Assembly (NCBI GenBank): GCA_030248295.1
Contig: JASANH010000243.1
Location: 272,636 to 336,635 of the forward strand
DNA: 64,000 bases
Reading direction: 5' to 3'
From: Mesodorylaimus sp. YZB2_4
Lineage: Eukaryota; Nematoda; Enoplea; Dorylaimida; Dorylaimidae
Position 1 is the first letter of the stretch. Every line of letters begins with the position of its first letter. Below, one piece after another: positions 1,110 through 61,565 of the stretch. The notes below the pieces were generated by a model. The model was not told the origin of the DNA. It ran no database searches and saw nothing but the letters and a program-made list of their open reading frames with translations. A program made the translations under genes and the position numbers.

Positions 1110-4100
1110 ATGGATGATCTGAAGGCTGACTTTTCGCAGTCTTCTCTTCATTCAATATTTTCACCTGGGTTTGCCACAAGAACATCGGCAAAAGTGGCCT
1201 GGGCTCTTGCCTTTTTTGCCTGCCTGACAGTATTCGTTACTTTTGTTGTCCAGTCGACACTGTTCTTCTTCACGTACCCTGTCGGAACGTCAACCAAAGT
1301 AAGCCATGAGTCTGCGTGTTGTTTGTTGTGAAAGGACAGAGAAAAAAGTTTCAGATCGAAAATGGTCCATTGGAATTCCCATCTGTGTCCGCGTGCAACT
1401 TGAATCCGTACAAGGTCTCTGCTCTGAAGCAGAAAGCACCCAACGTTTATAGAGAGGTAAGTTATTTCGTATTCATATGTTAGTTACATTCACTCTGTTC
1501 GAGATCTGTTCAAATCCTATGTCGAAACCATATTTGCACTGCATTGGCTGGCTTCAGTAGAGTTTATACAATACAATCATGCGCTCTGTGCACCAGCAAC
1601 TCTGTTGGCCTTTTCTAAATCTTTCCGTTTTTCAAAGGTTCTAACTAGCTCGAGTCAAACAGTGAACAGAGAACGGTAGGAGACAAGACAGAGAGGCTTT
1701 TGCACAGATGCAATCAGTCCACATGACTAGACTCCTGCATTCTGTTTCCATCGTCACCGCACTACACTCTCAACTTTGCACTCACGCTGTAGCAAACGGA
1801 CAGGAGTGGTTTGCTGGACAGTGTGCAGTAAAAACAGTCTCCCCACCCCGAAACAATCACATCCTCTCATGAAGGCAAACAAACATTGATTTTGCGCTAA
1901 AAAACTCTGGATGACGTTTGCTTTTACAGCTTCAACAATACAGCGCACAAATCATCGCGAAAAACAAGTCGTCTCGAAAAAAGCGACAGATTGAACATGC
2001 AGTCCGAAATATAACAGAAGAGCGAAGTTCGCAAAACTCCGCAGCCGTACCCATCGAGGTCATTGAGAATGAAAGAGCCTTGGCGAACACAGAAACATTT
2101 TGGCTTGAAACTGAGGGAAACATCCGACGTCGCCGATCGATATCTGCTAGTCAAGGTATGACATGTAATACCCGTTTGTTACAAAGGCCGACTGCAAGAC
2201 GCCAACTACTTGGCTATGTCATTGGCTCCCCAAACTACAGTATAGGGTCGTAGCAAAAGGAAGCTGTATGTTTTACTGATATACAGTCGTCTCCGCTTAA
2301 TTAATGTGTTTCGCCAGGGAATGAGACTGAAGGTGGCTATGATTGTAATACTGTACAAGTACAGTAGATATTATTCCGCTCTCCGTCCCTTAAAATTATC
2401 TCACAGCTCATGTCTTGCAGATGTGCCAGACAATGTTGGCAAGGTATTTTACACCGCATTTGCGCCAAATCCATACAATTGCACAAGAGAGCTAGCGTTA
2501 GCGACCACATACGCCACTCCATTCAACGTGACTATCACGACCCGAGACAACAGTTTTACATCGGTGACAAAAATCGATAGCTCGAAAGTCTACATTGTCA
2601 AATTTACGTCTGAGTCATCAGTGGGCATAAAACTGGTAGCCGATTACGACTTCATGGTTTACAGTATGTTGTATGAGAAGAGTGGTTCGGCGGAAGGCTT
2701 CCTGGTTCTGCCAGTTGATGTACTCGGCACAGAGTACATTGTAACTGGCATCGATAAATACAGGGACAACAACATCCTGATTGTGGCCACTCAAATCGGA
2801 ACATCGATATCAGTGTCTGGCGGCCTCAATGGAAGCTTCTTGGCGAACGAGAGAGATGTAGTTGATTTGAGGAATCAGACTGATCTCACAGGAACAAGAA
2901 TAACATCGAATTATCCTGTAGCAGTCATTATTAGCTACGGATGTCTCTACTTTCCTGCCGGCTGCAATTGGTGTGATCATGCGGTTGAACAAGTAGGTCT
3001 TGTGCAATGTGCTGAACCCTTAGGATGATAAGATCTCCGAATATGTCATAAAAATTTGACTGAACTTTTTTCTTATCCTGTCAGCTTACACCAACAATCA
3101 AATGGGGCATGCGGTTCGTGCTGTCTCCATTCCAAGCAACGTGCACGTCAACTCCGACTTGCTGCAAGAACGCAACGTATTGCGCGCAGTGCTACGAATT
3201 CTTCAAGGTTGTTGCTTACACTGACGGCACAGTTGTGAACAGGATTGGAACGTTTTCCACGGAAACTTTCACTCTGAACACTCGCGAATGGCGGATGGTC
3301 TTGACGAGGCAAGGCGAATATTCGTACCTATCTGCGAACAAACCATTGCAAATCGTCCAGATTATGACTGGAACGTTTTATATTGATCCAGGTATACTTT
3401 GCTGTGTACAAGTACAGTGGCTTGGAATAGGGCTTCACAGCACAAAGCTTCGAATTTGAAATTCCCGCTTAGGCTGCTTATGACAATACCTACATAAAGG
3501 ATACATATGACAATACCGGATAGAGCAGATCTTTGCGCGATCTTATGCAAATTTTGAATGAGGCGGCAAAGATCAATTTTTATTACTAAATTTATCGAGG
3601 AGGGATTATTAAGTGAATTTTCAAATACATACGCTCGCGATGATCTCAATTATTAATTTGGATCGCTAGATCAAATACTTTAGATCTGCTCACCAATCTG
3701 CTGTAGATCCGTGATCAGATTGTCATAAGCAAACTCCCTAACATAATTGCGCTGCTCAAATCTTTGCTGACACTGAAATAATCTATGGGGTATGGACACA
3801 GAGATGTCATCATTAGAGTGCTCTGCATCACTCATATTTTTATTTGCATGGGGCTCGTGACTTTCTTTGCACTAGGGTGTGTGGACGGGACCTTGAGTCA
3901 TGGCCTGAGCTATTGCGCCAGCTTTTGATCACACATCCAAATTCAAAGGTTTTAACAATAAGGGCATGACGCCAGCCATTTTTCACGCCTGATTTATCTG
4001 GGCACAAACTTTGCTTTTTCTCTTGCCATGATACTGTGGAAGAATAAGCCTCATGAGTAACTCATTAAATCTCAGCTCGATATCCCGAGCCTCATCGTGA

Positions 4101-7100
4101 TTGATAAAGCTATTCATCAACGAAACGTAAATTGCTGTGAATTTTGCGTGATCCAATTCTTGAAGCCCAGCTGCGGGGAAACTCAACGAACTGATGGCTA
4201 GACGATTGTCTGAAGAACAGCAACCAATCAGTTCGCTTAGGATACCAATTTATCTGAATCAGACTGGATTCGGCAATCGATCGAATCCACCTAAATTGCG
4301 ACCACCGATCCGACCGACCGATCGGATCCACCTAAACATACACACATATACAAAAAGCATACGGTGTCTGAATTTTCTGTGCAAAAGTTTTTCTTTCTCG
4401 TTCAAGGGAATGGATCCCTATCAAGCGATCCATCTTTGCTGATGATACCTCCAACTGACGGATTCACCAACATTTACCACATTGTTTCTTGCAACAAAAA
4501 GTTCACCGACCACTACCTCAGACTCGCGATTGACACAAGCAAGGCGACAGGGCTCCTGTTAAATGGACTGCCTTTCCTTGGTCTGACTCCCGCAAATCCT
4601 GTCCCAAACACAACCCTGAGCGTTTACCAGTACCGGATCCCATGCTCTGGCGTGTCCGAGTCCTTTGTCATATCACACAACGATGTCGACGTCCTCTTTG
4701 GGGTCACAGCGTACGGCTTTGGGGACGACATCAGCTACGCTTACGTGGCTGGAATGCGTTTGGGTGATGGCTCATTCTTTTGCACGCCTGTTGCCGACTC
4801 TGATCCACCTGATGGGCTCGACAACGACTGTGATGGCTGGGTGGATGAAGAAAAACGCAACTTTATCGATGATGACAATGATGGCAGAATCGACGAGGAC
4901 CTTGCAGCAGTGATTCCAGTCATTAGCATCAACAATTCACTGATCACAACTTGCGATCTCATCACTATCCCACCTCCCGTCAACAATTCAGAGCCTGATC
5001 TGGCCGAGGCGTACGGCGATCCAAGATGCACCCCGTTCAACCTAACGTACAAGGACATCAGTGACAACCAGTCCAACTGCTCGACAGTCATCAGCCGCAT
5101 GTGGCTACTAATCGATGACTGTGGCAATGTTGCAGACAACGTCACCCAGGTGATCACACTGATACCACAAATGGACAACTACACAGCGCCTGCCCAAGCC
5201 TACTTAAACACAACAGCGGACTTAGCCAACATGAATGCCACGGGGATACCGAGTGTAGTGGCGGCTTGCGACTTGATTACGGGCGGAACGATCGTGCAGC
5301 CGTGGACAAACACCTACACTGACGTATTTGTAAATGCCACTTATGTCAATCGCACGTGGACAGTGAAACCAATGTGCTCAAACGTGACCACCGAATTGCA
5401 TCAGGATATCTTCATCAGTAAGCAGAGTACATTTCACACAGTCGCCTCTTTTCGTGCTGACTTGGTTATGGTTTTTAGAAATGGAGACGACGACCTCGAG
5501 TACAACCACGTCAACAGCTACAACGACCACCGTTGCAACTACTACAACTACGTCCTCCACCACCTCCACTGTCACAACCACGACAACAGAGGCCACAACG
5601 GTCTTATCGTCAGTCACACCTGTCAGCACGAGCACAGCACCAACCACAGCACCAACCACAGCACCAACCACAGCACCAACCACAGCACCAACCACTATTA
5701 CAACAAGTACAAGCGTGCCAATAGCAGCGCCCACCACGTCTGACGGCGCGATCTCTACAACAACTATGCTGACAAGTGCGCAAACCTCACCAATTAGCGC
5801 AAGCGCAGGATCAACCACTGTTCTGACAAAGACAAGTGCGCCACCAACAACAGGGCCCACAACATTCGCCAACACGAGCACGACATCAACAACTGTGATG
5901 ACACGTACGAGTGCGCAAACCTCGGCCTTTGACTCAAACACAACACCAACCATTTTTTCGACCAGTACGAGTGCGACAGCGGCATTCACATCTATAAGCA
6001 CAAGCTTTGCACAAACTACTGAGTCGAGAATTATGAGCGCACAAACCTCGTCTGTTGGCTCTAGCTCCGCATCAGTCATTTCTGGTGCAGGCAGTACTAG
6101 CTCATTATCGCCCTTCAAATCCTCGAGCACAGCCACGAGTACATCCAGTCAAAGCACAAGTGCCTCTCTGATGACATTTGCATCAACAGACACTGGTAGC
6201 GACACAACAGCTTCGACAGAAACAACCTACAGCAGCCCCGTGTCAGTCGAACAGTCTAGTTCATCGATGGCCGCATCCATCACCGCCTCAGAGAACACGT
6301 TCACAACCTCCAGCAACAGTGCCGCATCAATATCAGGCGCAGTCACATCTACTTCATCGACACTTTCAAATAGTGTCGTTTTCACAACCATATCCACAGT
6401 CCCTAGGTCATCGAGTGAGCCAAGTACCACGAGCAGTACAGCCATGCTAGCTTCGAGTGCAATGCAGAGCGGCAGCACTGTTTCTTTCCAAACCTTCCAA
6501 CCAGCTTCTGCAAATTCTACAATCATGACATCATCGCTACCACTCAATAGCCATTATTCAAAGCAAGCCATTACAAGCACTCCACGGTCAACTGATCCGG
6601 CATCGCAGACCATCGCAACTTCCACACCGACTAAACCCACGGTCCCGCTATCTAGTGCGAGCAGTGCACACTTCACGTCTTCTCCCGCTTCCTCAGCAAC
6701 CTCCTCTCCATTTACCGGATCGTCGGGTGCTACTGTGTCAAATCCATTGTCAGCAGCGACTTCGAAAGGCTTCAGTGCAGCTGTTACTTCAGAGGCTCCC
6801 ACATCGAGATCCAGTATAACCATCAAAATCACGTCGGAATCAGCTATACTCTCTGCGACAACCTCAAAGTCACAAGCAGCATCTCCTCAAATCATCAAAT
6901 CCACAAGCGACAGCTTATCAACAATCATAACCACTTATGCTCAAAAATCATCCCCGTCATCATCATCAAAAGCTTACAGCAGCAGTGCAGCCAGTACAGT
7001 GTTCGCAGATAAAACCACAGTTAGCTCAGCAACGTCCACACCTCTAGAACGACTTGCCAGTAGCTCAGCCGCAGTGCCGACAACGCGGCTGCAAACTGCT

Positions 7101-10100
7101 AGCTTCTCATCACTCACCTCAACGCACAGCCAGTCTGTTTCAAGTACGCCGTCCACCACGCAACTAACCAAGCAAACTGCATTACCGTCCGCTGAGACCA
7201 CACATATTCCATCATCTATTGAGAGCAAAAAGCAAACAACATCAAATGCTGACTCAAATTTTATGAGCAATGCAGTGCACACATCCAGCGCGGCCAACTT
7301 ACCCAGTAGTAGCAGCCCCGAGACGATGGTTTCACTGACAAGCCTTCGGTCAAGTCTTCACGACACAGGAACAACTAGCACATGGCCAGCAGCGTCGACA
7401 TCGGGAGAAAGTAGCAGCCCTCAAACACTTCTAGCCAGCAATTTTGAGTCAGCAAGCAAACCATCTAGCGTGTCGGCAATGCTCAGCAGCTCCTCATTTC
7501 CAAGGTCTGTTCTTTCAACAGCATCGCTGTTCAGTTTGGCCTATCCAACAACTGATCGTGATACTACCACGTGCCCATTTACACACTTCCTGTCAACAGT
7601 CAGCGCCATAAGCTTGCCGCTCAGTCAATTGCACTTTCCAACGTCTACATTCAAAACACCAAGGCGCAAAACACATCCAACAGTGGCAGTTCTGCAAGCA
7701 GAGGATGGACGAGCAGTGTCAACACTAGCTGTGGAGTCCAGTATGAATCCCACAACCCCGCAAAGCACCAGAGGGGAGCAAACAGAAAACCTTGGGGCAG
7801 CCACGACTGGTCCTGTTTTCACAACTGAAGAGTCGCCTGTCCTTGAACCATTCTCAACCGACATAGCGTCATCAGTTCCATCAGAGAGTCCAACAACGAT
7901 CAAGCTAGGCATAAAGAGAATGCGCACACCAGGAACCAATGTGCAGCCACAAATCTTCGCTGGAACTGCTAAGTCGACCACAATCGGCCGGAGCGCTCCA
8001 ACTGATACGAATGAGCAGACTAGCATAACGACAGTTTCCTTACCATCAACTCAGCCGCTCAGCACAGATGAGCTAATAGCTATAAGCGACTACGATGAAG
8101 CTGTGGGTTTGAATATTGATGTCGAAAGCTTGACCGACCGAGCAACCTCATTTGAGCATCCATCGTCTCTGCCAGCAAACGTTGTTGGGCTTACTTTTTC
8201 AAATCAAGAACAGACATCAGCTCATTCAACTAGAAAACTTGGTGTCATGAGAAAGGCAACTCCAGGATTCATGCTTAACTTAGTCGACGAGGCCCAAATT
8301 ACAAACTTCGAGAGGATAGGAAGCACAGTTCCTGCTCTGCAATCTCTGCTGGACTCTTCGATCAGCGCCAATCAAAGTTATGAGACAGCGCAGGCACAGG
8401 CAGCTCTTCTGTCAGACGCTGACTCGACCAGAGCTGTTGGAAATGCTGGTTTTCTGCATGAAGGTGAGGCTCCCAACACCAGCTTTCCTCATAATCCCTC
8501 GACGTCGCCACAGGTAGATTTGGTGACATCGACCTCACCCAAACCCCCCACCGGATCTGCTGGGACATTTGAATCAACAGTCCCGCATATTAGAACCACA
8601 CCTGCGCCCACCCTCACTGCACTTGTAGACACCAAATCAACTTTATCTTCCCGAACATCTGCTGGAGATATTTCACCAGGCAAAACAGAACCTTTTGAGC
8701 CTCCACCTGTCTTTGCGACTTCTGCAGTAACCAAACTTTCAAGCTCCCATTCAATCCTTCAAACGAAACAGCAAGTGCAGAGCTTATTTGATATTTTCGC
8801 ACCGAGTGGCACTGTGCTATTCGGTCTAGAGGAAGCTACAAGTGCAATAATTGACCCAAAAGCTAAATTAACTGGGGCCGAGCAAGAGATGTCGGCGTTC
8901 TCAAACCCACTATACACCGACAGTGATGTCACACCCCTTTCCACATCGCCAGGCACACGGAGGTCCAGATCCGCCATTCGTCACAGCTCAAGCACAAGAT
9001 CAATTTATAACGATGTCGACACTTCCAGCACAGGAGGGACAAAAGCAGCAAGTTCACAGGCCATGAAATTAGGAGCATCAAGGCCAATAATCACGCCTTA
9101 TACTCAGTTATCCGAACTGACTGCGCTGTCATCAGGGCCTGATGTGCCTTCCGCAGCCCCGACTTTCAAGTCAAACACCATCATCCACCGCAGGCTCACA
9201 GTGCAGCCGAATGCAGAAAGGTTCTCAGCGCATGTTTCTAATAGTGCACCATACATGTCTACAGAAGGGCTTCTTTCCTCAGTTGGTACATCGAACCAGC
9301 CGATAGAACTGCCATGGACACCTCGAATGAAATATACCTACTCGAGTGCACCACTTATTGCCGCTGCACTAGCAAACCAATACAGCAACATCGTATCAGT
9401 GAAAACAACAACTTCACTCTCTCCCGCGTACCTCCTCCCTGGACAGCCATTGCTTAGGCGGCCCGTTAAAGGACGCACTTTATTTTTTGCCATTGAAACA
9501 TCCAACCCGCCTGATCTTATTCCAACTGTTCCTCCGAGCCCACGCAAACTCCCTGTTCTTTTCTCTGCCGCAACTAGCCTTTCCGATGCATCTGGACAGT
9601 CTAAGCCAGACAATGAGTTGCAAGGCATGAAAGCTATGAGCCCTCGTGTAACAGATTCAATCCAATTAGTTTCAAATGACACACACAAAAATGACCCTAT
9701 GATCAGCAATGCTGCTCTGAACCCCACACCTGAAGAGACAGAGCAAAAAGAACCCAGCAGTCAAAATAGAGGCATCCCAGGAGCCGCCAGTATTGATCAA
9801 AGCGCAGGTCCAACAGCAACTGCAAAGACTGATTCCAGTATTTATGCCGATTATTCCAAGCCAAAAGACACAGATCCAGAAGATCCCGACCAACAGAACC
9901 AGGGATCAGCAACTACAGTCGCATTGCAACAAATGGCGCCATCAATCGTGAATGCGTCGTTGCCCATACTTGCTGCAACCATGACCCAGCCAGATTACCT
10001 GACTCAAAGCGAGGCCGCACCAGCTTTCGATGCAAGTATTGACGAGGGCAAACTGCTGATTTCTAAGCAACAGCCTTCGACCCGAAACTTTGGCATCAAC

Positions 10101-11838
10101 GACCAGGTGCCAGAAGATCGAGCGAAAGAACGTCGGACGACAGACGGAGATCCTAACATACCTGACATTGCGGACGAAACTAGAGAGCTTACCGGCAATT
10201 TTGGCGAGGACGACTTCAATCTGACGATTAGTGTAAGTTTATAAACTTCTTAACCACTGCTTTCAAAAAGTATCAGCTTCCAAGCTGCGCATTCTATGGC
10301 TTCTTGTTTTCTCAGGCGGACGACATGGACACATTGGCATGGGCGAGCCAGATGCAAGATGCACTGGCCTACTTTATGAAATCTGACGACCCCGACAGCA
10401 CAATAGCATCACTGCTTGGATACCAGCTCGACGAGTTCATCTTCTGGTGTCGATACGCGGGGCAGAAATGCGCGCTGTCCAAGTAAGGTTGCCATCCTCC
10501 TCTAGCTGCCAGCCATAATTCTGCTCTGTTGAGCAGGGAAGTCAAAATGTTTTCTGACGCAAACTACGGAAATTGCTTCACCTTCAACTGGATTCCGCAA
10601 TCACATTTCGCAAGTCGAGCTGGCCAAAGGCTCGGTCTGAGAATCATCTTCAACACACCCTCCGACGATTACTTGCCCTTCACGTTGCCAACGGGCTTTG
10701 CATTGGCCTTTCATGAAGCGGATGAAGAACCCATGATCCAGTCTCTCGGAATCAAAGGCTCTCCTGGAGTGCACTATATTTATGCAGTGTCAAAAGTAAA
10801 TGTTACACAGAATAACCAGGCCGACGTGACGGGCGACGGGCGACGGGCGATCTGAATTCTGATCTGATCATCCTTTCAGATGACAGTGTCCCGTGCCGGC
10901 GATCCATATTCTCCCTGCATAAATAGCCAAGGCGATTCAGAGAACTATTACGTAAACAAGTCCTATTCGGTCGAGGTGAGCTGAAAAGTTTGTTGATCAC
11001 TTCGCCTGTGACGATGGTTTTTTAATCCCAGACATGCCTGGCTACTTGTTATCAGAGAACTGTCATCATACACTGCGCATGCGGGGATCCTCGCTATCCC
11101 TTGCCCGCTGGTCACTCCTATTGCAATATCTCTCAAAGTAGGTTTTTTTCTCGCTTCGACAACTGACGTTACAGTAAATTCATGTTCTGCATGGTTACAG
11201 AGTCATGTGTCGACCAAATGGCAGCAAACGCGTCCGATTACATGACGGTTCATCGATGTGGATGCAAGTCGGCGTGCAGGTGCCGCTAAGGTTTTTAAAG
11301 ATGTTTCGAGAAATCAAATCCTGCAATTTTAGCAGCACTCATTTCGAATTCGTGCAAACCAGAGCTTTATGGCCAACAGATGGTTTCACAGTATGTTTAA
11401 TATTGACAGCTTTTAGAAATCTGTGACGACATTCTTCGTTTTTTCAGCCTCCTAAATGCGAAGGCAAAGTGTTGTCGGACCTTGACGAGTGCAAGAATAG
11501 TTTCAGGTAAGCTGTTGTGCTGATCAGCCATCGACTCAGTTTTATCGCCTGCATCTGCTTTCAGAGCAAATTTTAGTCGAGTGGACATTTACTTCAGTTC
11601 AATGGTTGGCACAGGCTTGGAGGAATATGCTGAATATACGGTACTGTAGTCACATCCATCCAGTGTGGCCTATTTGGGGAATAAGGTGCTTTTGTTTCAG
11701 ATAGCAAATATTGCCTCCGACCTTTTCGCCAATTTCGGATTTTGGCTGGGCTGCTGTGCCATTTCTGTTATCGAATTGGTTGTCTTCCCTGCCGTGGCCT
11801 CATTCAAAGCCATATTTACAACATTGCAAAAGAAGTAG
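1110..11838 (+). CDS. Giant DEG/ENaC (ASC) channel with IgGFc-binding-type and mucin-like ectodomain
   Basis: Proposed exons: 1110-1298, 1355-1456, 1930-2155, 2421-2992, 3085-3391, 4407-5417, 5479-10232, 10316-10482, 10537-10795, 10880-10975, 11032-11137, 11201-11279, 11333-11390, 11448-11506, 11565-11640, 11701-11838. All phases agree and sum to 8,199 nt (2,732 aa), several times the usual family length. Seen: TM1 about residues 29-54, then YPV and the family motif FPSVSACNLNPYK; RKKR (113-116) and RRRR (163-166); an IgGFc-binding-type region (about 173-700) with the motif LTPTIKWG; an acidic DNDCDGWVDEE / DDDNDGRIDED segment near 600-630; one 4.75-kb Ser/Thr/Pro-rich exon (about 803-2387); then the DEG/ENaC core with GNCFTFN, paired Cys motifs, WP and TM2. 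Known: the family forms trimeric cation channels opened by protons, peptides or force. Inferred: the extra domains replace or extend the finger region, making a mucin-tethered channel. Oddities: the N-terminal HG motif reads HS (14-15) and the TM2 filter reads GCC (2704-2706). The donor at 11280 is weak. Confidence 0.88.
5479..10232 (+). other. Single mucin-like exon of the channel gene
   Basis: This uninterrupted 4,754-nt exon encodes about 1,584 residues dominated by Ser and Thr, most densely in its first half. Such composition is typical of heavily O-glycosylated stalks. It joins in phase to exon 6 (donor 5418, acceptor ending 5478) and to the channel-core exon at 10316. The later half is less biased but still rich in S, T and P. 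No Cys-bearing fold is apparent within it. The valine-rich frames on the opposite strand here are shadows of the repeats. Confidence 0.85.
5634..5693 (+). repeat. 12-bp tandem repeat, five units, encoding TAPT
   Basis: The unit ACAGCACCAACC is repeated five times without error and encodes Thr-Ala-Pro-Thr in the mucin-like exon. A perfect coding minisatellite like this is a likely site of length variation among individuals. Confidence 0.95.
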
Positions 11839-12765: not shown

Positions 12766-21279
<8,514 letters not shown>

Positions 21280-32900: not shown

Positions 32901-35900
32901 GCGATGGAAGGCCCCAAATATATCCAGCTTGCCCAATAGTCTGATCGATATTAATTTATTTGGATATTGGGAGGACGTGATGGACAGAGATTTCGTCAAG
33001 GTAGGGGCTGATGCTAAACTCCTTTCCCAGGTCAGCATGTCAAGGCAACGTGCACTGGGGCTCATGCACCTAAGCACTGATTAAGAGACTATGCTGCCCT
33101 TGCGGCTGAAACTATATTTTACCCACATCATGCTATAATTTGGCACTTCCTGTCAAGATGGGCGGCCGACGAGTAAACTAAAGTTTCTGGGTCCTTTATT
33201 GCAAACGCTTACTTGCCTCGGAGTCTCAGCTACTGCGATAGACTGTCTGCGTGAAACCCACGTTCCTAAACTGAGATGACCTGTGGCCATACTTGACTTG
33301 ATTGATCAAATTAATACCCAAATAAATGCAATGTCACAAAGGCATTGTTGGAGTGTTCAATCTGTTTAGGTCGGCAGTATCGCGACTTCCATTCCCAACA
33401 CTGGCGTTTATTCATTCAATCCAAAAATGTTAGTCAAAAACGACATCGAGCCCGATGCATGGCGTAAATTTTGGGGCGGTGTTATCCAGATTCACGTGGC
33501 TGATCATCAAAAACACGACCGTGGCGACAGACTAGTATGGTCAAAGTTGATCCCTTTCGGATGGTACTTTCAAGATGTCTGGAGGCGGGAGTACGGCCCC
33601 GATTGGGCCTTGCATATGTGTATTGAGTGGTTCGATTTTGATGGGAGAAGGGATAACTTTATGATGGAATTAGAACGTGATAGCCCGTGCCCGTGTACTC
33701 TTAATCAAGCTGATGCAGATTTCGGACGATTTCTACCACTTCCCGAATGCGACATGTACGGCGACGCCTCCTGCTTCTATTCGAAAGGAGCCCAGCATTG
33801 CGTTGTGGCAGCAGCGGCTACGTAAGTCACAGCTAAGGACAAACAGAAAGCTAGCAGAGGCGTCTGGTCCCGAAAGCAGAGAGCTAAGAGCTCCGTAAAA
33901 GGCACGCACCCACGATTGAGGAATCGAGTAGGAAGAGGCCTAGAATATTGAATAGACTAATCTCTGAGCCTCAAGGGGGACTTGAACTCTGACCTCTCTG
34001 GCAAAAAAACCAGGCTAAAGCTTTTTGTATGTCATGTCATACTTTATCCGTAGCCGAGCACTATACTCGAGGGCTCACACAGGATCACGAGGATCACACA
34101 GATTGACAACCATGCGTTACCCAGGCGGGAGTCGAAGCCTTCCCTCTAAGTGCGCTCTTAGCGTGAGAGCCAGACGCCTAACCTGCTAGGCCACCCCCCA
34201 GGCGGGGCATAATGCATGATGACCGCATCATTGATTGTCCAGTTTATGCCATGTGCCAAATTCGCCCTCTTGATGGCAGGACTCTAAAGAGCCACAACTA
34301 TTGTCACCTCAGGTTCCAAATACTGTCTGATCCAGAAAGGATTCGCATGGATTCCACAAGGACAGTACATACTGACCCACATGCATCTACGCTTTTTTCG
34401 GATGTAGCCCAGATGGATCCTCGACTTTTGAGGATTCTTGTTCGAATGTTCCTCGATCCTCACTTCACCTTCTTTTAGGGTTCGTGGAGCAACTCAAGTG
34501 TGCTGTTACGATTTCAGTGGTTGGCTCATGTTTTCCCAAGACTATGAGTACAACATGGACTATTTGCGTTACGCATCGGCCGGGGTGCCATATCGTGCTC
34601 ATCCCTGGGGTGGCTATCGATATAAGAAGCCTCCCCACGTACCCTCGTGGTCAAATTTTTACAACGACCTGTTACCCTACGACGTGTGCTGTCGATGGGC
34701 TGGTCGATGCGAGTTCTATTACTGGCGCAGAATCACATCGGGATGCGAGAATTATAAACCTGTCGCACTGGGTAAGTTCTGAAAGGCAATCCATCGGGTG
34801 CAACTTGCCGTTTACTCAAAAGTTTCCCCAGGGTCCCGGCGGGATCGATTGAGGTCTATATTTCAAGGTTGACGTCAATTTTTGTAGCTCACAAAGCGAA
34901 ATCCAGACGGGTTTCGCAATCAGAGGCCGAATCAACTCATGATGATAATGTCAGCCGCAAAACTAAACCTGCGGCCTGTGTGCGCCCTGAGGCCCCAGGG
35001 GCCGTATTTGAGGAGAGACTTTGGAGAATAGTTAAGTCCGATTTGAGGTGCATAGGCAGCAGGAGAACATGCTTGAATTTTAAAGCATGAACAAGTGTAT
35101 CCTGGTGGGCCAAGGCAGGTTAAAGATAATAATCGCCCTTGGCTGTGAAACGTTCAGCCAGAAACGCAGAAACGCGCAGTGGGAATGTAGGCCGCATTTT
35201 CTCCTGTACCTGCCAGCCTTGGCTACATAAACGATAATTGTGAAACTATTGGGAGTCTGCTGAGTAGTCTACGTCAGATAGATCATGGTGAGTGGGTGCA
35301 ACCCGTGCAGACAAGCGTGGGAGAGAGTGTGGTCGATCAAAGTCGGCAGGACAAAAAGTGTGATTGGAGGTAGGAGTCTCGCGCTATACCTGCCCTAGGA
35401 ACATCAACCGAAGAGGTTGACGTCCCAGCCAGGGGAGAGTATCGATCACTCTCTCCCACTCGCCATGGTCTGCCTGGCTAGGGGTTACATGGCTATCTCG
35501 TGCCTTCTAGGCTCGGTGTATGGTCACGGGCATTACATCACTTTCGACAATACCAAGTTCACATTCGCTGGCCGTGGTTATTATACTCTGGTGGCTTATA
35601 AATCGCCCCACCACGATCTGAAGATTCAGATTCGTACGGAACAGTCACCCAAAACATTGTGTAAGTCTCGTGAATTCATGATTTTGCAGTCCAAAACAAG
35701 GCACTTTCAGACAACACTGCTGTGCCCGCCACAGTGGTGACAGGAGTTGCCATGCAAGACAACGGCTCGTCGATCGTTCAGGTGTTCGCCAGAAAAGAAC
35801 ATCGTCGATGGCGATACAAGACCGATCTCTACGTGGATGGCTTGCGCGTCTTCACTGACCTGACCAAAAAGAAGTTACAACATTTCAATCGGGTCACAGT

Positions 35901-38510
35901 CCGTTCGCCGCACATGAACATGAACCAGTCAGAATTGGACTTACAGTTTGCCACAGGAGTCGGTGTCAAAGTCTATGAAATGAATGGATATCTGCAAGTT
36001 ATCGTGTCCTTACCACCTAATTACAACGAAACTGCCATGGTAATATTTAACTTTTTGTAACCATAATTACACTTTTATGTCAATTGTAGGATGAAAATCG
36101 ACCAGAGGCCTATTTTGGATCGTCTAGATGTCAGAATTTCTATCGGACAACTGGTCTATTAGGCCCGTATAATGGAGAGCCGCGCGACGATTTGACAAAT
36201 CCGAATTGCCAGACATTAACTATCCGGGGGCAAACTGAACAAGATCTAAGAACTATATTTTACGAATTTGGAGAAAAATGTAAGTTAGTCTTTTTTCTCT
36301 CACAGAAACCCCAGTGACCTTCCTGGCGGTCGCGATCGTCGGTTTTTTCTGGCTGGTCAACCACTACAGTTGATGCTTCAGCGGCAGGCGGTCGAGAGAC
36401 TTGCCTCCATCCCTCAGTTGAAGCTTTGGCTGCCGCCTGAGTGCACTGGCTACATGGCGGGCTTACCAGGCGCCGGCAGAGTACGAACATAAAAGCTTTC
36501 ATTTCGTGGTTCCTTCTCGAGGATTTATAAGTTTTTAAATCGGAAGCGTTATACTATTGAAAACTTGCGTTATCTTCAGGGCGCGTCACAGCCGGATCAG
36601 AAATCTTGTTTGACCGCCGTCGTGCTCCTCTCTACTATCCACTGGGATGGGCATCCAATTTCACCCCTAGTTTCGACCCGTGGCAAGACTATAGCAACAT
36701 CGACGAGGAGTCACTGATTTTCAATAGGGCCACTGAAGTTGCAGTACGTTGGTTTTTTCGCAATAATTTAAAATATCGTAGAAATAAATTTTTAGTCCAC
36801 ATGCCAAAATCTTTTTTCTTGCGAATACGACTTTCTGGTGACTGCACGACGAGAAGATGGTTTGGAGACATTGTCAACTGAAAAGAAATTTGAAGGAATG
36901 AAGCAACGCGGGCAACAAAAACGTACATTTTTGTTTCCCATACCGTCAATTTATTGACTACCCTCTCCTCCTTTTAGTGACTAGCTGTGGACCACTGCAG
37001 AAAAATGACGGAGTACTCAAATATCCGATCGGGAATAACTATCTGGACGGGGTGACAGTGACTTTCAGTTGCAAAGTGGAATATTTTCTTCACGGAGCTT
37101 CGCAACGCACATGCCAAAATGGAACGTGGTCACCCGGATGGTGGAATTGGTGCAGAAGTAGGTGATTGAACAGCGTAACCAAGCATGGCAGGCATAGGAG
37201 GAAGGAGTGTGACAAGAACTGCGACTAGAGCGGGCAAGTCTTGCGGCTATACTTGAGGCTGAAACATCAACCCGGCGGGTTGACGTTTCCATGCCAAGGG
37301 GGATAGATTACTCTCTCAAAATCGTCACGGCCTGCTAAGCACGAGGCTTACATCAGACTGGCCCGAGTCAAAGTGCTTCAAGTTCGAGTATGGATTTCAG
37401 GTCGAAACGAAGAATTAGCCCTTAAATGGATAACAGGTCTTCTGGTCACTGGCTGTTTCGTGGCCATGATAGCCGGTTTCTTCTACTGGTTGTATAAAGG
37501 ACGGTTTGACAAGCAAAGATTATGGGGAGGCAAGGTAGCGCCAGAAATCACGGCAGCAAAGCGTATTGATGGCCCGGATGATGAATACAAGGAGTCGTCA
37601 ACGCCAGATGACCAGACTGTGACTGACCAGTACGAGCCATCACCACCTCAGTCTATCCGATCTTTCGATTCGACACCAACGTTGCCTAAAGTGAGAAGGG
37701 CCGTGCGGAGGTAAGTGCGCACCCCGCTTTTATTGGCTTGTTATATACAAAGTAACGAGACTTGCATATTTCCCTCAATAATTTACTGTAGGGTCTCCTT
37801 TTTGGTTTTATTGTGGAGCACTTGCATGAAAATCGTTCTGGCTGTATTTTGTGCATTCATTTAGGGTCTTTGCTGTAGTAAAGATGGGCCATGTTACACA
37901 GAATGATAGAAGGTGAAGGATAGGCAATGCTGAAGGATAGGACATGGTGAAAGATACTTAAAAAAGTAGTGACACAAGGATGACTCCAGTGAAAGAAAAC
38001 TGATTTACACCGTCTTTTTCTTCTAGAATTATTCGCAAAATCTCTGAAGTTGCTAACCCGCCTCCCATACAACCAACCATGACTACTCCGAGTCCACGCG
38101 CGCTAGAACGCCCCGTAATCGCCGTTTCGGATTTCTCAGAACCTCAACAACCGAGAAATGTGCCAATTGTGGAAGAGGATACAGTTTCGGAAAGGGCATG
38201 GTCCTTTTCTTCATTTTTCGGTCGTCGTCCATCAGCTGCGAGCCCTACCGGAACGAATTTACAGTTGCCTGAGGAGAGTCTCGCTAGACCAATGCCCAAT
38301 CCGAGGCGATCGATGGCTAGAGCACCCGGTCTGGCAACGATTAGTGAGACAGTGCCACCACCTTGGATACCACCTCCTGAAGCCATTGCCCGACCAGCTG
38401 AACTGGCGCCCACCCATCGTCAGATGGATAGTCGCGATAGCGTGTATACAAGCGTGAATAAAGGCGCTAAACAACCAACCAGGACCCTGTTCACGGAAAG
38501 CAGCTTTTGA
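29912..38510 (+). CDS. mesh-like: Mesh-like NIDO-AMOP-VWD-sushi transmembrane protein
   Basis: Nineteen exons: 29912-30173, 30286-30416, 31220-31515, 31772-31907, 31978-32112, 32207-32372, 32407-32556, 32613-32733, 32789-33000, 33370-33821, 34479-34771, 35511-35660, 35711-36039, 36090-36279, 36580-36743, 36796-36922, 36978-37157, 37401-37710, 38027-38510. About 1,430 aa, like Drosophila Mesh. Order: signal peptide (1-22), QFG-rich stretch, NIDO domain (WWNLYPFGERYNDVD, later LIVTWERM.YGG), a PYINMVGGTVFNVSGPC region, AMOP (CPCTL.QA..D.GRF, YSKGAQHCV), VWD (HYITFDN.KFTFAG), sushi domain, TM near 1170-1193, and a Pro/Ser-rich cytoplasmic tail of about 235 aa ending SSF. Mesh organises smooth septate junctions in gut epithelium; the C. 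elegans relative is K03H1.5. The start was chosen at 29912 because the signal peptide begins there. The junction of exons 6 and 7 is out of phase by one base with a 34-nt gap, probably a sequence error. Confidence 0.92.
30041..30110 (+). repeat. Imperfect QFG-coding tandem repeat
   Basis: Degenerate 9-12-nt units such as CAATTTGGT and CAATTCGGC encode repeated Gln-Phe-Gly just after the signal peptide of the Mesh-like protein. Codon drift between units shows the repeat is old. Confidence 0.8.
30440..30592 (-). repeat. tRNA-derived SINE-like repeat, copy 2
   Basis: The minus strand shows a box-A-like TGGCCTAGCGCTTACAGCG and box-B-like GGGTTCGACTCCCGCC, then a body shared with copies 1 and 3 ('ggtgctcggctatgaataagtatgc'). 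It lies in intron 2 of the Mesh-like gene. Confidence 0.7.
31664..31698. repeat. Palindromic repeat family, copy in Mesh intron 3
   Basis: GCTGAAACATCACCC and GGGTGGTGTTCC form an inverted pair. The same arrangement recurs at 35399-35428, 37256-37293, 41862-41889 and 62872-62911. Confidence 0.65.
34035..34203 (-). repeat. tRNA-derived SINE-like repeat, copy 3
   Basis: The minus strand shows TGGCCTAGCAGGTTAGGCG (box A), an extra arm, and GGCTTCGACTCCCGCC (box B), followed by the shared 'ctcggctacggataaagtatgac' tail. The long variable arm suggests a Leu- or Ser-type tRNA ancestor. It lies in intron 10 of the Mesh-like gene. Confidence 0.7.
35399..35428. repeat. Palindromic repeat family, copy in Mesh intron 11
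   Basis: ACATCAACC and GGTTGACGT are exact-type inverted halves around a 6-nt centre. The flank with 'gggagagagtgtggtcgatc' resembles the flank of the copy at 62872, so the repeat unit extends beyond the hairpin. Confidence 0.65.
37256..37293. repeat. Palindromic repeat family, copy in Mesh intron 17
   Basis: GAAACATCAACCCG faces CGGGTTGACGTTTC, a 14-bp stem with one mismatch-type position. This is the best preserved copy of the family in the window. Confidence 0.75.
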
Positions 38511-47939: not shown

Positions 47940-50900
47940 ATGGCTGGGCTTACAACAAGTCTACTCCCCTTATTTCTCTTTTTTTATTTAAGTTCTTGCG
48001 TAGAAATTGATTTTGCTAGAATTACTGTAGAGCATATTAGACAGGCCCTGTTGACTGGAGCTAATTGCGCGGAAATTATTGACCTGTTCTTGAGGAGGAT
48101 TGAGAAATATGAAAGAGGCCCGTTGCAGCTGAAGGCCATAATCAGTCTCAATCCGCATGCCAGGCAAGAGGCTGCTGATTTGGATAATCATTTCCGTCGA
48201 ATGGGGAGTCTAGTGGGGACTTTACACTGCGTGCCGATTGTGGTTGGTGATAACATCGATGTGGCTCAGATGGCAACCACAGCCGGGGTTAGAGGTAAGC
48301 CGCCAATCCATTGTAAGCTTTTTAAATTTGGCGCCTAATCTGATTTTATTTGCATGCAGCCGTCGGTCTGCTTTCAAAATACCGACTGTTTTCAAAAAAT
48401 AGTGAAGACTAGAGGGTCAGGTAAAAAAAATTGAGTGCGAGCGAGAAAAACTTTGCGCACAGAAACACTGAATTCTGACTTTCCGTTTAGGTTTCGGTTG
48501 ACGTGAACTTTGACTTTTTAGGTTCTCGCCTAATTTAAATTTGTGGGAATTCAAATACAGGCCTTTCTGGCGTGGGAAATGAACTATCTCCTCGATACTA
48601 CATCTCACAACTTTAAATTGGCGGGAACTTACGAATATTGGTGACTGTGCGCAAAGTATTAATTCTTTCATCAGTTGGTTAGTCATGATGCTCTCTCCTT
48701 CTCGGGCACCAATCAGAAGAAAGCTATGGCCTGAATTAAGTTAGTACATGCTTTGAACTGATCAGCTATGAGCAAATCCAATATTTTTAGCCTTGTCTGA
48801 CTCATTCGCCCCGAGGGACGCGGATATTGTGCAGCTGCTGAAAAACCAAGGCGCAATCGTGGTCGGCAAAGGGAACATCTCGCCGTTCGCTTGGGAGCAT
48901 CGTTACGTGGAGAGTCAGACAGGCGGTTTGGCTAAGAATGCATATTGTGTAGGCTGCACTACTTACGGGGCCAGTGCAGGTGCAGCTCAAGCCACGACTG
49001 TAGTCTATGGACTGATCGGATTGGGCACAGATTCGGGTGGTTCGATTGCCCTGCCAGCTAGTGCAGCCTCGTGCTTAGGTCTCAGGCCGTCTTGGAATCT
49101 GGTGAGCACACGAGGCATAATTCCCGTCCAAGATTTTACAGACGTCGTAGGCCCCTTCACGAGGTACGCGTCCGATATGGCTGTCGTTATGGACATTCTG
49201 GATCCGGCAAAGCGAGGACGAGGACACTATGATAAAATAGTGCGAGAGGCTGAACATGGATCAAATGACATGAGGATCGGGATTATGGCTGATCTGGTTT
49301 ATCAGAAGGTCGTCTGGCCAATGGCCAATTCTCAAGGCTCGTCTTTGGTCACGTTCCAACTTGGCGACGATGTACGAAGTCTGGTTAGCAAGGCGATTAG
49401 TGATATGAGGTCACTTGGTGCCGAAATGACAAACATGACACTTGGTATGCAACGAATATTTTCTCATCTGGCAGCATTTGGCCGTAAGTTCCTTCGTACT
49501 CATTGATGGGGGGAGGGGGGATTCCTCAGAAAGTTAGTGGACTATAAGCCTGCTAAGCGACTAAACATAAGCTATACGCCATGGTGTCGTCGAATCGTTT
49601 AGCAACAGCTTCTGATTTCGCGATTCAGCGGCTCTAATTAGGGTTATGGGATAACTGCAACAGGTTTCGGCGTCTTGAGTGGTTGCACTTGACCGACTTG
49701 GACTGCATCCGTACTGTATGTGTCGCAGGTCTGCCAAATCCAGGTGCTTCTACCCGTTTTCTGCGTACCGCAATTTTCCGTCGAGTCCGTGCAATGACAC
49801 TGGCCCCAATGGGTTGTGGTGTCAGCTTAACCTCGCTCCGACCCTGACCAGGGAGGAAGAGAAATAGTCCGTACATCAGGTGCACGCCAGATATTCTATG
49901 CTGACAGAGTACACTGGGGCATCTATTAAACGTAAGAGCCGCGGTGGCTCAGTTGGTGGGCGTTGGTCCCGCATTTCTTGGGCGAAACCCTGACTGGAGG
50001 CCGCACTTTTGTTCGAGCTGAGGACGGCACTCTGGACGGTAAGCCCGTTCTCAGAGTTGGAACCGGCCTTCGACGGTGATTTAGTAAGTCCGTCGCTAAC
50101 CTGGCTCAGGGCGACTCACCACGCCAAACGAGTGGAAAATTGGGAACCTGGTCGTCGGAAACCAGTCGGGCAGGATCTCCCTTCTCTCCCATTATCATCC
50201 TGGGACGCTGGTGCTGGCACAGGATGCCTCGCGTGGAGGTGCTCCTAATGGAGACACACACAGGGAAGCTGGTCACCTCACGGCCTCGATTTTCATATGA
50301 CTGTTGGCTAGCTAGGCAAAACGATTTGGAAATCCCGTGGGGAAACTGGGGCGGCATGGGGTCCAACCCACAAAAATCTTAAAACAACTGTTACATAACG
50401 CAGAATGTACAAGGTGTCGACATCGATCGATGCACTCTCAGTTCTGGTTTCAGAATTCGACATCACATCCTGCAGTGCCGACTGGCTCAATTCCTATTTG
50501 CGTCGTTTGACATCCCCGGCCCCTTACCACAGCCTGAGCCAAGTACTCCGAAGCCGCACCTTACCAGAAACATTTCAACGCTACTTTGAAACTTCTCAGC
50601 GCAAATCCATCCTTCAACAGTGTGATACAGCGTCAGACACGTTCCACAAGGCAAGAGCTTCTTTAAAAGAGTACATTATGGAACCTTTGTTCAATGGAAA
50701 TAAGGACGTGCTGTTATTCCCAATGTTATCCGATTTTCCTCCCACAATCCACGACCGTCGCGATCAGCCCCTCATCGGGGTCCAGCTGGCTGCTTTGGCC
50801 GGGTACCCCACCCTCACGCTGCCAATTGGGTTCAGCATCCCGACCAATGGTGCCCCGCAAGGACTGCCGACCAGTGTACTCTTGATGGCCCAGCCTGGAC

Positions 50901-51554: not shown

Positions 51555-52687
51555 ATGCTTTGTACCATCTTCATTCTTTCTGTTGTTGGATCTGTGGTGG
51601 GGGATACGCAAAGGTATGGTCTGTTTGCACTCTCTCCTGGTTTGTACTTTGCTGGTCACTTGAGATCCAAGTATTATTTCAGATGCTCAACAGACATGGC
51701 CTTCCTCGTGGACCACTCCAGCAGTATCACAAGTACCAACTACGTCAATACGGTAGGCACTATGAGTGTAGCCCTGGTGACTTTAGCTTGCATAAATATT
51801 TTAGATCATTCCCTTCCTCCAAAACCTCGTAGACGGCTTGGACGTCGATGATCGTGTTGCATTGGTGCCTTTCTCCGATCCAGACCTGACAGAGGTCGCG
51901 TTCCATTTTAATAAATACTCGACAAAGGCGGATATAATTAATGCCATGAAAAATGCAGAATTCAGAGGCGGAAACACCGCAACCAGGAAGTAAGTCTCCC
52001 AGTTCTAGTCTCAGTCTCCAATCATGATTGCTCAGCCTACAGTCGTTGAAAAACATGGAATCAGGCAGGGGTGCTCGTCTGGGGCTCGAAACTGACGAGC
52101 TTGGTGACAAGTTGCGTCAACCATTGCTTTTATCTCGCAAAAATCAATCAATAAAAGGTCTCCATCAGCGTCTGAAAACCCATATGCCCTTATTTGGCAG
52201 TGTCGATCACTCTTCATCAGCAGAGTTGTACAGGATAAAAAATGTCCAATTAGTTTGTGAAAATTGATGTCATGTGTCACTTTTCAGGGCACTCGAACTA
52301 GCCCGCGATTACGTATATGATCCGAGCAACGGTGCCAGGACATCCAGTTATAAGGCCGACGTGGCCCCAACTCTTCTCATTATCACCGATGGAGTGGCGT
52401 ATGTCTCGCCTGCACGTGACCATAGATCATATAAACATCAAATTTATTTTAGAACTGATCGCGATCCCGCCTCGATAGCTGAACAGCTCAATGTTTTTGG
52501 CATTTCCATATTCGCCGTCAAAGTCGGTCCTTTGGTCAACGAAGATTATCTCGCTCAGATCACTGGCGACCCGAAACGAGTGTTCTCGGCCGACAGTTAC
52601 GAAGATTTGACCCAAGAATTGGCCAATGCCATCATCGCCAGTACGACCGCGTGCTCGCAAAGAAATGGTGTTTATCGTAGTTTTTAA
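51555..52687 (+). CDS. Secreted single VWA-domain protein
   Basis: Exons 51555-51613, 51683-51752, 51805-51989, 52288-52398 and 52453-52687 give 660 nt (219 aa) with matching phases. A signal peptide (MLCTIFILSVVGSVVG) is followed almost directly by a VWA domain. The MIDAS is complete: DHSSS (D-x-S-x-S), the Thr of GGNTATRK, and the Asp of IITDG. The motif IFAVKVG and a C-terminal Cys close the fold, pairing with the Cys just before strand 1, as in matrilin or collagen-VI VWA domains. Such domains bind matrix or adhesion partners through a divalent metal. The 54-nt intron 52399-52452 is itself open and in frame, so a retained form would add 18 residues after ITDGVA. Removal restores the family sequence ITDGVATDRD. 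Confidence 0.9.
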
Positions 52688-56762: not shown

Positions 56763-57060
56763 TGTGGCTATTCGAATTTGGTTTGCCCCCCTCTCTTTTT
56801 CGATCTGGTGACCCAGACGGCCTTGCCGTGAGTCAGACACTTCCTTCCTGCCCGTCTCTAGTTAGCCACGCCTTGCGTGCTTATGATTGGTTGCTTTGCC
56901 ATTTGATGTATCTATGCGCCAGTGCTTTGTGGTCTGTCGAGATTTCGTCAGTCAGTCTGAATTGTGTGTTTGTCCCGTGCGGTTGTAGAATAAAAGGTCT
57001 CGTTGACTCGTTTACGTTTGCTATCGTACGGCACCTAGCTTGACTCGCTAGGTTACCACA
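56763..57060 (+). repeat. 5' LTR of a Ty3/gypsy-type retroelement
   Basis: The 298-bp segment begins TGTGG and ends CCACA, the inverted TG...CA ends expected of an LTR. AATAAA sits at 56990-56995, just upstream of the likely R/U5 part. A TGG that could start a primer-binding site follows at 57062. Confidence 0.8.
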
Positions 57061-57230
57061 TTGGTTCCCATGCCCGATCGAACCCAGAAGTTCGGTTGGT
57101 GAATTATTTTACGTATTTCGTCCGTTTATTTCGTTCGATTTTGATTTCGATATTGACCCAGACCCTGTCTGTCCCGATTATTCCGATTTTGACCGATTTT
57201 CGAATCGTACTGTATTCAGTCGACGACCAG

Positions 57231-60200: not shown

Positions 60201-61565
60201 CGTCGAGTTGCATTTCGACATATCAACGCCTTGCGTGTCACTGCTCTGGACATTCCAATTGTTCGCCCCCTACAACGTCGAGAATCACCCGAAATAATTA
60301 TCGGTATTGATGGCCGCCGAGTGCAGGTCCTTATTGATTCTGGGGCGCAGGCATCTGTTATTTCGGATAAGCTGTATTCAGAAATTCACCCGGATTGGGA
60401 TGGAACCGTCGACCCGTGTCCTTTGACTTTCCGTTCTATTGACAACGATCAGCCACGAATTATTGGCACCCGTCACGTCCATCTGACGTTTGGTTTGGTC
60501 ACCGTGCTTCACGAAGTGGCTCTTCTTCACGATCCCAAGGGCCTCATTACTATGCTATTGGGTCAAGACATCAATAATCGGTACAAGCATACACTTTCTG
60601 AAAGTGCCCGAACTGTGCTGTACTGCGCTGGTGAACTGAAGGGTGTGCAAATCCCGTATGCGTCCAAGGACCCCGATTTGCCAGTGGGTAACGCGACTGT
60701 CGCGTATGGTTCAGCTGCGATTCCGCCCCGATCAAAAGTCAACGTCGATGTGGTGCTAAATGGCTTCCACGTCCAGGACCGTCCTGTGCTATATTTCGAC
60801 CAAAGTCCGCATACTAGAAGTGGTTTGGAAGTGGTGATTCCTCGTGGACTATGGACTAAGGAAGACCTGGGAACTACGTTCAAAGTGCCTGTATTCAATC
60901 TGTCCGACCAGCCGAAAGTTCTGTCAGGTGTCGTCCTGGACGCGTATGTCCCTGACCCATTCGTCTATCGCGCTGCCCAAGATACGTCAGCGTCTATGAT
61001 TGCGTCCTTGCTACCTGGCCCGGCCAGAACGACTGATACTCCGCCTGTGGTAGTCAATGCCCTCGATTCGCACCCGTTGCTTGCTCAAAATCAGCAACAA
61101 GGGTCTGCTGCATCCCCGTCTATGGAAGCGCCTCTAATTGGAACGCCGGAGCATCTCCGAGGGGTCATGGAGAGAGTGGTTATCAACCCCAACTGTTCTG
61201 AACAGCATCAAGAAATGTTACGACAGGTTATTCGAAATAACGCCGATATCTTTGCCTATCACGACTCTCATCTGACGAAGACTAATCTGGTGCAGCACCG
61301 CATTGACACGGGTGACCACCCTCCTGTTCGACAGCCAGCTCGGCGGGTGGCCCCTCCTCTGATACCGAAAGTGCGCGAATGGCTCACGACTTATTTGGAT
61401 GCTGGCATAATTGAGCCGTCTTATTCCGCCTATGCCTCGCCAGTCGTCATGGTTAAGAAGAAAGATGGAGGCATTCGATTCTGTATCGACTTTCGTGAAG
61501 TGAACAAACAAACGGTCTCGTTGACTCGTTTACGTTTGCTATCGTACGGCACCAGCGACCGCTAG
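57231..61565 (+). pseudogene. Gag-pol polyprotein, truncated in reverse transcriptase
   Basis: The frame runs from the ATG at 57231 to a TAG at 61563-61565 (about 1,444 codons). It encodes a Gag-like N-terminus with a charged helical stretch (57430-57560), a retrotransposon Gag core (about 58610-59170), a CCHC knuckle C-x2-C-x4-H-x4-C (about 59703-59750) with a second looser one after it, an aspartic protease with LIDSGA (about 60331-60350), and the first 40 residues of RT (SPVVMVKKKDGGIRFCIDFR). The catalytic YxDD region and everything after it are absent. Gag and pol are in one frame. The last 17 residues come from LTR sequence. Confidence 0.88.

Follow-up and report, generated by a model that had tools for sequence, protein, structure and literature searches.

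The window, a 64,000-nucleotide stretch of the nematode Mesodorylaimus sp. YZB2_4 (assembly GCA_030248295.1, contig JASANH010000243.1, positions 272,636 to 336,635, forward strand), contains a gene for which the architecture of a DEG/ENaC channel subunit with a built-in insert is well supported. The two halves of its ASC channel domain enclose a complete IgGFc_binding domain, HYR-like sequence and a Ser/Thr-rich arm, and the same order of exons recurs at other loci of the genome. The gene appears to belong to an old DEG/ENaC family marked by a secreted-type IgGFc/HYR-like/mucin-like protein within the loop between helices alpha1 and alpha2 of the finger domain. We give about an even chance to the fuller reading, drawn from sequence, that its product is a furin-processed DEG/ENaC subunit with its own tether to the extracellular matrix.

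Gene model and paralogous loci

An earlier reading of the letters alone (the original prediction) had joined sixteen exons without a phase conflict. All sixteen were located, each intron being of the GT-AG type, and they form a single spliced frame of 2,732 codons (window 1110-11838) whose sole stop is the last codon. A Met stands at the matching place in eight of the nine paralogous first exons compared with exon 1 of the window, the exception being C11 (paralogs are named after contigs of the same genome, which comprises 145 Mb in 1,067 contigs). DEG/ENaC ends around an IgGFc-binding-type region had also been proposed, and the comparison with hidden Markov models recovered both. In a Pfam scan (hmmscan) of the 803 N-terminal and 392 C-terminal residues, a range that excludes nearly all of exon 7, ASC (PF00858, cut-off 23.6 bits) matched once over exons 1-3 (E=2.5e-12, 47.0 bits, profile positions 5-125 of 455) and once in the C-terminal 392 residues (E=4.3e-49, 168.2 bits, positions 129-455). 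Between them lies IgGFc_binding (PF17517), complete over profile positions 2-297 of 297 (E=2.5e-43, 148.9 bits, cut-off 25.6). No EGF family matched at E<=1 in the residues scanned. Among chains of solved structure, the C-half matched beta-ENaC (6wth_B, E=1.9e-37) and the N-terminal part gamma-ENaC (6wth_C, E=9.5e-8). The IgGFc region gave a single PDB match at chance level (E=0.86), and a profile search of the PDB with exon 6 gave none. 'IgGFc-binding' is a family name and IgG is a vertebrate protein, so the domain does not imply Fc binding.

In a Kyte-Doolittle scan of the whole protein, the only hydrophobic segments were residues 25-56 and 2695-2729; the same scan gave two segments in C79 and C1a, and an extra weak one (537-555) in C90. 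This pattern fits a single channel subunit whose ectodomain spans about 2,640 residues. The acidic repeat of the original prediction is present, more exactly as two DxDxDG-type loops from residue 604 onwards, with HYR-like sequence after them; the loops of exon 6, DNDCDG and DDDNDGRIDEDL, are presumably of the calcium type. The giant Ser/Thr exon is there as well, with one Cys in 1,584 residues and 36% Ser plus Thr overall, and its strongly mucin-like character is confined to the first half (48% vs 25% in the second).

Loci elsewhere in the genome were found by searches with the IgGFc domain and with the channel C-half, followed by searches of the fetched stretches with the window exons, and both locus lists are lower bounds. 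IgGFc and channel C-half matches often coincide in place and strand. Nine loci, spread over seven contigs, share a collinear order of channel exons 1-2, IgGFc exons and exons of the channel C-half: the window, C79, C1a (contig C1 at 1.96 Mb), C90, C387, C1b (C1 at 2.49 Mb), C11, C233A and C233C. In some of them the search missed short or diverged exons; the final exons of C11 went undetected, and in C387 and C233C they fall at or beyond the edge of the stretch read. Four further loci on C233 were partly seen (C233-15k, C233-64k, C233-75k and C233-89k). A census with exon 5 counted 19 IgGFc loci, 13 of them being the nine collinear and the four partial fusion loci. For the IgGFc loci on C14 and C175, the 14 and 13 kb read contained no same-strand channel exon at E<=0.1, and those on C151, C41 and C257 showed no significant channel match in the 3.5-3.7 kb read (best E=0.013, opposite strand). 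The census locus on C49 was not read, and a match on C18 came from the IgGFc search only.

The splice structure is equally recurrent. In C79, all 28 splice sites compared fall exactly at the base predicted from the window, exon 7 can also be placed, and the model has 16 exons with the phases of the window and 2,954 residues. Most splice sites of the other paralogs are exact, some being shifted by 3-36 bases or not found; the models of C1a and C90 (2,811 and 2,855 residues) have one GC donor each. Because exon order and phases recur in the paralogs, the architecture is far beyond chance. In a tree of exon 8-11 segments, a single branch (support 86/92) set 11 clade members, including C233B, which lacks a detectable IgGFc domain, apart from the other channel loci compared. 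The tree contains sequences of this genome only and compares the clade with seven of the eight other channel loci (L037, which is the C-half of C233-15k, L008, C233-64k and C233-75k were left out), and the tool flagged that long branches meet within the non-clade channels. The clade stands within a large DEG/ENaC family, with at least 114 ASC matches genome-wide, many in long open frames. The window gene was absent among the matches listed, probably owing to its short ASC exons, and of the 14 control genomes that of Thermotoga maritima matched as well. Exon 9 had no relative in a scan of prokaryote contigs, as expected.

These loci bear on whether two adjacent or nested genes, or a mis-assembly, have been taken for one gene. 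Stand-alone IgGFc genes do exist and the model is built from genomic sequence; against this, the fusion is found at nine loci on seven contigs, splice sites lie on or near the predicted bases and the window protein has no third hydrophobic segment, which leaves an artefact extremely improbable and close to refuted. Two neighbouring or nested genes were rejected on the nine collinear loci, window included, and an assembly error on the same structure on seven contigs. The single-gene channel with insert of the original prediction is supported: with nine collinear loci and no third hydrophobic segment, a break into two genes between exons 2 and 8 is very unlikely.

Both the channel and the insert (exons 4-6) are under purifying selection. 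Between the window and C79, exons 4-6 (IgGFc plus HYR-like sequence) share 76% identity over 629 aligned residues, with nonsynonymous and synonymous divergences (dN and dS) of 0.165 and 1.43 and a dN/dS of 0.12. The ASC C-half (342 residues, 72% identity) differs at proportions of 0.164 nonsynonymous (pN) vs 0.782 synonymous (pS) sites, its dS being too saturated. In the younger pair, C1a and C90, dN/dS is 0.33 for exons 4-6, 0.22 for the ASC C-half, 0.30 for exon 3 and 0.72 for the arm; across the three of six pairs with finite dS, the ASC C-half gave 0.08-0.22. The arm keeps its length (1,584-1,812 residues) and composition (35-36% Ser plus Thr) and little of its sequence, with 20-31% identity outside the close pair in alignments that are weak.

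Exons 3-7 form a cassette with phase 0 at both borders, and their skipping would join exon 2 to exon 8 (residues 1-97 plus 2388-2732, 442 in all), giving a channel of about 440 residues and leaving the giant form rare or tissue-specific. We consider such splicing very unlikely as the main explanation: the ASC N-half match reaches into exon 3 (residue 129), and skipping would remove part of the domain, while the conserved frame and motifs of the insert imply that the long form is in use.

Putative cleavage motifs, arm and pore

The ASC profile of the window protein is broken at positions 125/129, the C-half resuming four profile positions later. In the N-terminal alignment (phmmer), SRKKR/Q of the window meets SRKRR/E of gamma-ENaC, and the C-terminal part resumes at residue 238 of beta-ENaC. 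The human gamma-ENaC site is given as RKRR in the text of PMC8791634, and a passage of PMC6197857 locates the GRIP domain, and with it the furin sites of ENaC, between helices alpha1 and alpha2 of the finger. By alignment only, the window insert would lie between the same helices, at the place of the ENaC GRIP domain. A distal R-X-[KR]-R motif stands upstream of the IgGFc exons (in C233B, upstream of the arm) in all 11 clade genes in which an exon-3 frame was found: the window, C79, C1a, C90, C387, C11, C1b, C233A, C233B, C233C and C233-15k. Exon 3 was not found in C233-89k, in C233-75k (136 bases examined) or in C233-64k (region outside the search). In the four full proteins, the exon-3 pair comprises the only R-X-[KR]-R motifs of the window, C79 and C1a, and the distal motif is the only one of C90. 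Shuffled versions of these proteins contained a mean of 0.13-0.17 such motifs, with two or more in 0.7-1.35%, and on these frequencies chance was rejected as the source of the motifs.

The arm takes several forms. It is long and Ser/Thr-rich in the window, C79, C1a, C90 and C233C, and also in C387, whose long frame breaks near the arm end with another frame continuing. The possibility that the arm is non-coding was rejected on its open frames, of 4.75 kb in the window and 5.1-5.4 kb in C79, C1a and C90. In C11, the unit seen in exon 6 (PPDGxDNDCDG...DDDGDG...CGN..., about 143 residues) is repeated about 27 times head-to-tail in one frame of some 4,000 residues. Pfam matches to two-unit stretches of this arm were weak (MopE in 10 of 10, best 6.1e-6; HYR_4C in 6 of 10, best 0.0045), and we tentatively describe the units as calcium/HYR-like. 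A search of the whole genome with HYR_4C gave no match, and its controls were silent too. C233B combines channel exons with Ser/Thr-rich frames of 308 and 2,065 residues (24% and 30% Ser plus Thr), and no IgGFc domain was detectable there by the window-exon search. A lysine-run (homopolymer) stretch in the C233B arm may be an assembly fault. Two unrelated kinds of long arm, together with an arm that lacks a detectable IgGFc domain, suggest selection for reach.

The insert also has counterparts outside channels. A stand-alone gene on C14 (L010, L063, L064) encodes an IgGFc domain, then HYR-like sequence and a Thr-rich tail, and another on C175 (L011, L065, L066) has IgGFc with HYR-like sequence and, by eye, a hydrophobic signal-like stretch before the domain. 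Since C14 presents these parts in the order found in the insert, it suggests that the insert was derived from a C14-like gene.

From these features we infer furin cleavage, trimer and two-chain assembly, matrix binding, and gating by pull or by ligand. A furin-type protease would cut upstream of the IgGFc exons and often also about 35-50 residues earlier. The cut would yield a chain with the first transmembrane segment (TM1) and a chain with the second (TM2), the new N-terminus of the latter leading into the IgGFc domain, and two cuts would release a short peptide, which alpha-ENaC also does. With about 1,600-1,800 Ser/Thr-rich residues or about 27 calcium/HYR-like modules, the arm would extend into mucus, into the glycocalyx or into cuticle-type matrix. 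Pore opening would change when drag on the arm, or binding by the IgGFc domain, is passed to the finger helix next to the cut. This retains, in conditional form, the idea of the original prediction that the channel is tethered to mucus or glycocalyx and may sense force or ligands; the GRIP place of the insert, the furin-type motifs, the other kinds of arm and the altered filter go beyond that prediction. Taken furthest, the protein may be a force-from-filament DEG/ENaC with filament, anchor domain and protease-set gate in one polypeptide, paired furin cutting evolved independently in an invertebrate at the GRIP place, an arm with a reach of possibly hundreds of nanometres (of the mucin type, or as a calcium-binding rod of about 27 modules) and an altered filter, a combination that we propose tentatively, as possible rather than probable.

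Several observations weigh against a furin-processed, tethered channel. The second half of the window arm has merely 25% Ser plus Thr, and C1b and C233A carry short linkers only, so a long arm is not required. The proximal motif is full in five of the 11 exon-3 frames (window, C79, C1a, C387 and C11), partial in three (C90, C233-15k and C233C) and lacking in three. The frames of C11, C233B, C233C and C233-15k were chosen by basic-motif scans, although most share with the window the YS-helix start, and in C233-89k the 1.2 kb upstream of exon 4 contains no motif-bearing exon-3 frame; as the scans sought motifs and this locus has no such frame, the count of 11 out of 11 is tilted in favour of presence. 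A control set of eight non-fusion ENaC frames of the genome also included two with R-X-[KR]-R, and for this reason it is the position and conservation of the motifs that count, not their mere presence.

The pore adds to these points. The usual selectivity filter of DEG/ENaC channels is GxS and the usual motif before TM1 is HG, positions that govern selectivity and gating. The nine clade filters read were GCC (window, C1a and C90), GIC (C79), SVC, SLC, SMC and NLC (four C233 genes) and GLG (C1b); none has the form GxS, the third residue being Cys in eight and Gly in the ninth. Five filters were readable at the eight non-fusion loci: GAS (L001, L004 and L006), GLS (L003) and GAG (L008). The HG motif is lost, reading H-S in the window and being absent from the nine other clade first exons compared. 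With HG lost and Cys or Gly at the third filter position, conduction may be altered or absent.

The main rival starts from these changes. The product may be a membrane-anchored mucin whose DEG/ENaC part is a (perhaps trimeric) anchor and no longer a regulated sodium channel, and which displays an IgGFc-mucin coat and, after proteolysis, sheds or presents it. The pore changes favour it, with HG absent from all ten first exons and Cys or Gly third in nine of nine clade filters vs GAS or GLS in four of the five readable non-fusion ones, and so do the stand-alone IgGFc genes with HYR-like sequence (on C14 plus a Thr-rich tail), according to which the insert can be a separate protein. The constraint on the ASC C-half (dN/dS 0.08-0.22 in three of six pairs) nevertheless exceeds what a mere anchor needs, and the distal cut would keep the arm on the TM2 chain, without shedding. 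We rate a membrane mucin as rather unlikely, the channel constraint disfavouring it.

A ligand-gated immune receptor or chemosensor would share the channel with the tether model and differ in what opens it: IgGFc would bind a defined mucus, microbial or matrix ligand, with the arm a mere spacer, and binding, not force, would be the stimulus. PF17517 is complete and under constraint, and the family is expanded, with a tandem cluster on C233 as often in recognition families. Yet C233B has a channel and a long arm with no detectable IgGFc, and the long arms vary in sequence while holding length and composition, which makes this a distinctly unlikely account compared with the preferred one of a channel tethered to the matrix.

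Feature coordinates and neighbouring genes

Table 1. Features of the window gene and of two paralogous loci (window coordinates unless a contig is named)
Feature	Position	Strand	Basis
Whole coding region, 16 exons, 2,732 residues: DEG/ENaC subunit with IgGFc/HYR-like/mucin-like insert	1110..11838	+	Spliced model; paralog C79 matches in exons and phases
Exon 1: TM1 (hydrophobic segment, residues 25-56) after a short cytoplasmic N-terminus	1110..1298	+	Splice model, hydropathy
Exon 2: FPSVSACNLNPYK motif and first part of finger helix alpha1	1355..1456	+	Pfam; phmmer alignment to gamma-ENaC
Exon 3: linker with two furin-type motifs, GRIP position	1930..2155	+	Splice model, alignment
Proximal furin-type motif RKKR/Q, residues 113-116; aligns with gamma-ENaC RKRR/E	1975..1986	+	Motif and phmmer alignment
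Distal furin-type motif RRRR/S, residues 163-166, upstream of IgGFc exons	2125..2136	+	Motif; kept in 11/11 clade exon-3 frames found
IgGFc_binding domain PF17517, residues 265-569, over exons 4-6 (2421-2992, 3085-3391, 4407-5417)	2696..4717	+	E=2.5e-43
Exon 6 end: DNDCDG and DDDNDGRIDEDL loops, then HYR-like sequence with DDCGN	4820..5417	+	Homologous to the ~27x unit of paralog C11
Exon 7: Ser/Thr-rich mucin-like arm, 1,584 residues	5479..10232	+	Splice model, composition
Exon 8: return into finger domain (putative alpha2 region, LAWAS) and FIFWCRYAGQKC	10316..10482	+	Splice model, beta-ENaC alignment
Exons 9-15: remaining ASC ectodomain (GNCFTFN, Cys-rich part, WP)	10537..11640	+	Pfam, alignment
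Exon 16: TM2 (residues 2695-2729), selectivity filter G-C-C at 11749-11757, stop	11701..11838	+	Splice model, hydropathy
C11 DEG/ENaC gene with ~27 DNDCDG/HYR-like modules (L018, L053, L054)	G000:C11 ~1,109,960-1,121,990		
C233B (L036, L056, L062)	G000:C233 ~39.2-49.7 kb	-	

Beyond the channel gene, the window contains collagen triple-helix repeats at 14561-15034 on the minus strand (scanned; neighbouring frames to about 19.7 kb look similar by eye). At 33370-36057 on the plus strand, a split AMOP domain (two pieces) precedes a VWD piece, in a gene that we take to be of the mesh or mucin-4 kind. Further plus-strand features are pieces of an Amidase domain gene (48772-49503) and of a VWA domain gene (52268-52684), and a retrotransposon-like frame of 1,508 codons (57039-61562) with Retrotrans_gag and an aspartyl protease, flanked by homopolymer-rich sequence at about 56.4-56.8 and 61.5-61.9 kb. 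Elsewhere in the genome, a COX1-like copy with TGA read as Trp (L060, C73 at 253 kb) is followed immediately by an ND4-like frame within a contig of 488 kb, and is likely mitochondrial DNA in the nucleus or part of a mis-joined contig. The COX1 search gave copies in contigs of nuclear size, and reading TGA as Trp suits an invertebrate mitochondrial code; a search for SL1 gave no match, its controls staying silent as well.

Comparison with known systems

The closest parallel is with vertebrate alpha- and gamma-ENaC, which share with the window protein the fold family, an insertion at the same alpha1-alpha2 place by alignment, and paired basic motifs, the proximal one aligned to RKRR of gamma-ENaC. 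They differ in scale: the tract released from ENaC is short and GRIP is small, whereas the window protein has an insert of about 2,200 residues after its motifs. According to PMC8791634, in whose main text the word 'invertebrate' is absent, the origin of paired cleavage sites lies in vertebrates. The furin-type motif pair described here at the GRIP place would probably be an independent, invertebrate case, which does not contradict the data of that paper. Like the window protein, EGAS-1 to EGAS-4 of Caenorhabditis elegans have an additional ectodomain module in a DEG/ENaC channel. Their module is EGF, in accordance with the name, which is expanded in PMC10424705 as channels with EGF plus ASC domains; the window protein has no EGF match in the parts scanned and a different module.

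For the insert itself, the known IgGFc_binding protein to compare is FCGBP. FCGBP/IgGFc_binding proteins and the stand-alone C14 and C175 genes resemble it in having an IgGFc domain and then HYR-like sequence, on C14 with a Thr-rich tail too. The stand-alone genes differ from the window in having no same-strand channel exon at E<=0.1 over the 14 and 13 kb examined. Among DEG/ENaC channels of this genome without IgGFc, the best non-clade matches in the C-half search were L004 on C14, L006 on C30 and a locus on C7. L004 (C14, 358 kb) and L006 also have, past the alpha1 region, loops of low complexity rich in Ser/Thr, Gly or Pro, that of L006 being Ser/Thr-rich with RPRR/S, but these loops have about 100-250 residues by eye, no IgGFc match lies nearby and the filter is GAS. 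Among open-licence papers, we found none on IgGFc with degenerin, or on IgGFc-binding with 'amiloride-sensitive sodium channel', a scope that gives no proof of novelty. Knowledge of how DEG/ENaC channels are tethered to the extracellular matrix is described as scarce in a passage of PMC7958617. The clade offers a candidate tether fused into the finger domain itself, and its natural versions, with a long arm, a rod arm, a short arm or no IgGFc, make the question of DEG/ENaC tethering testable.

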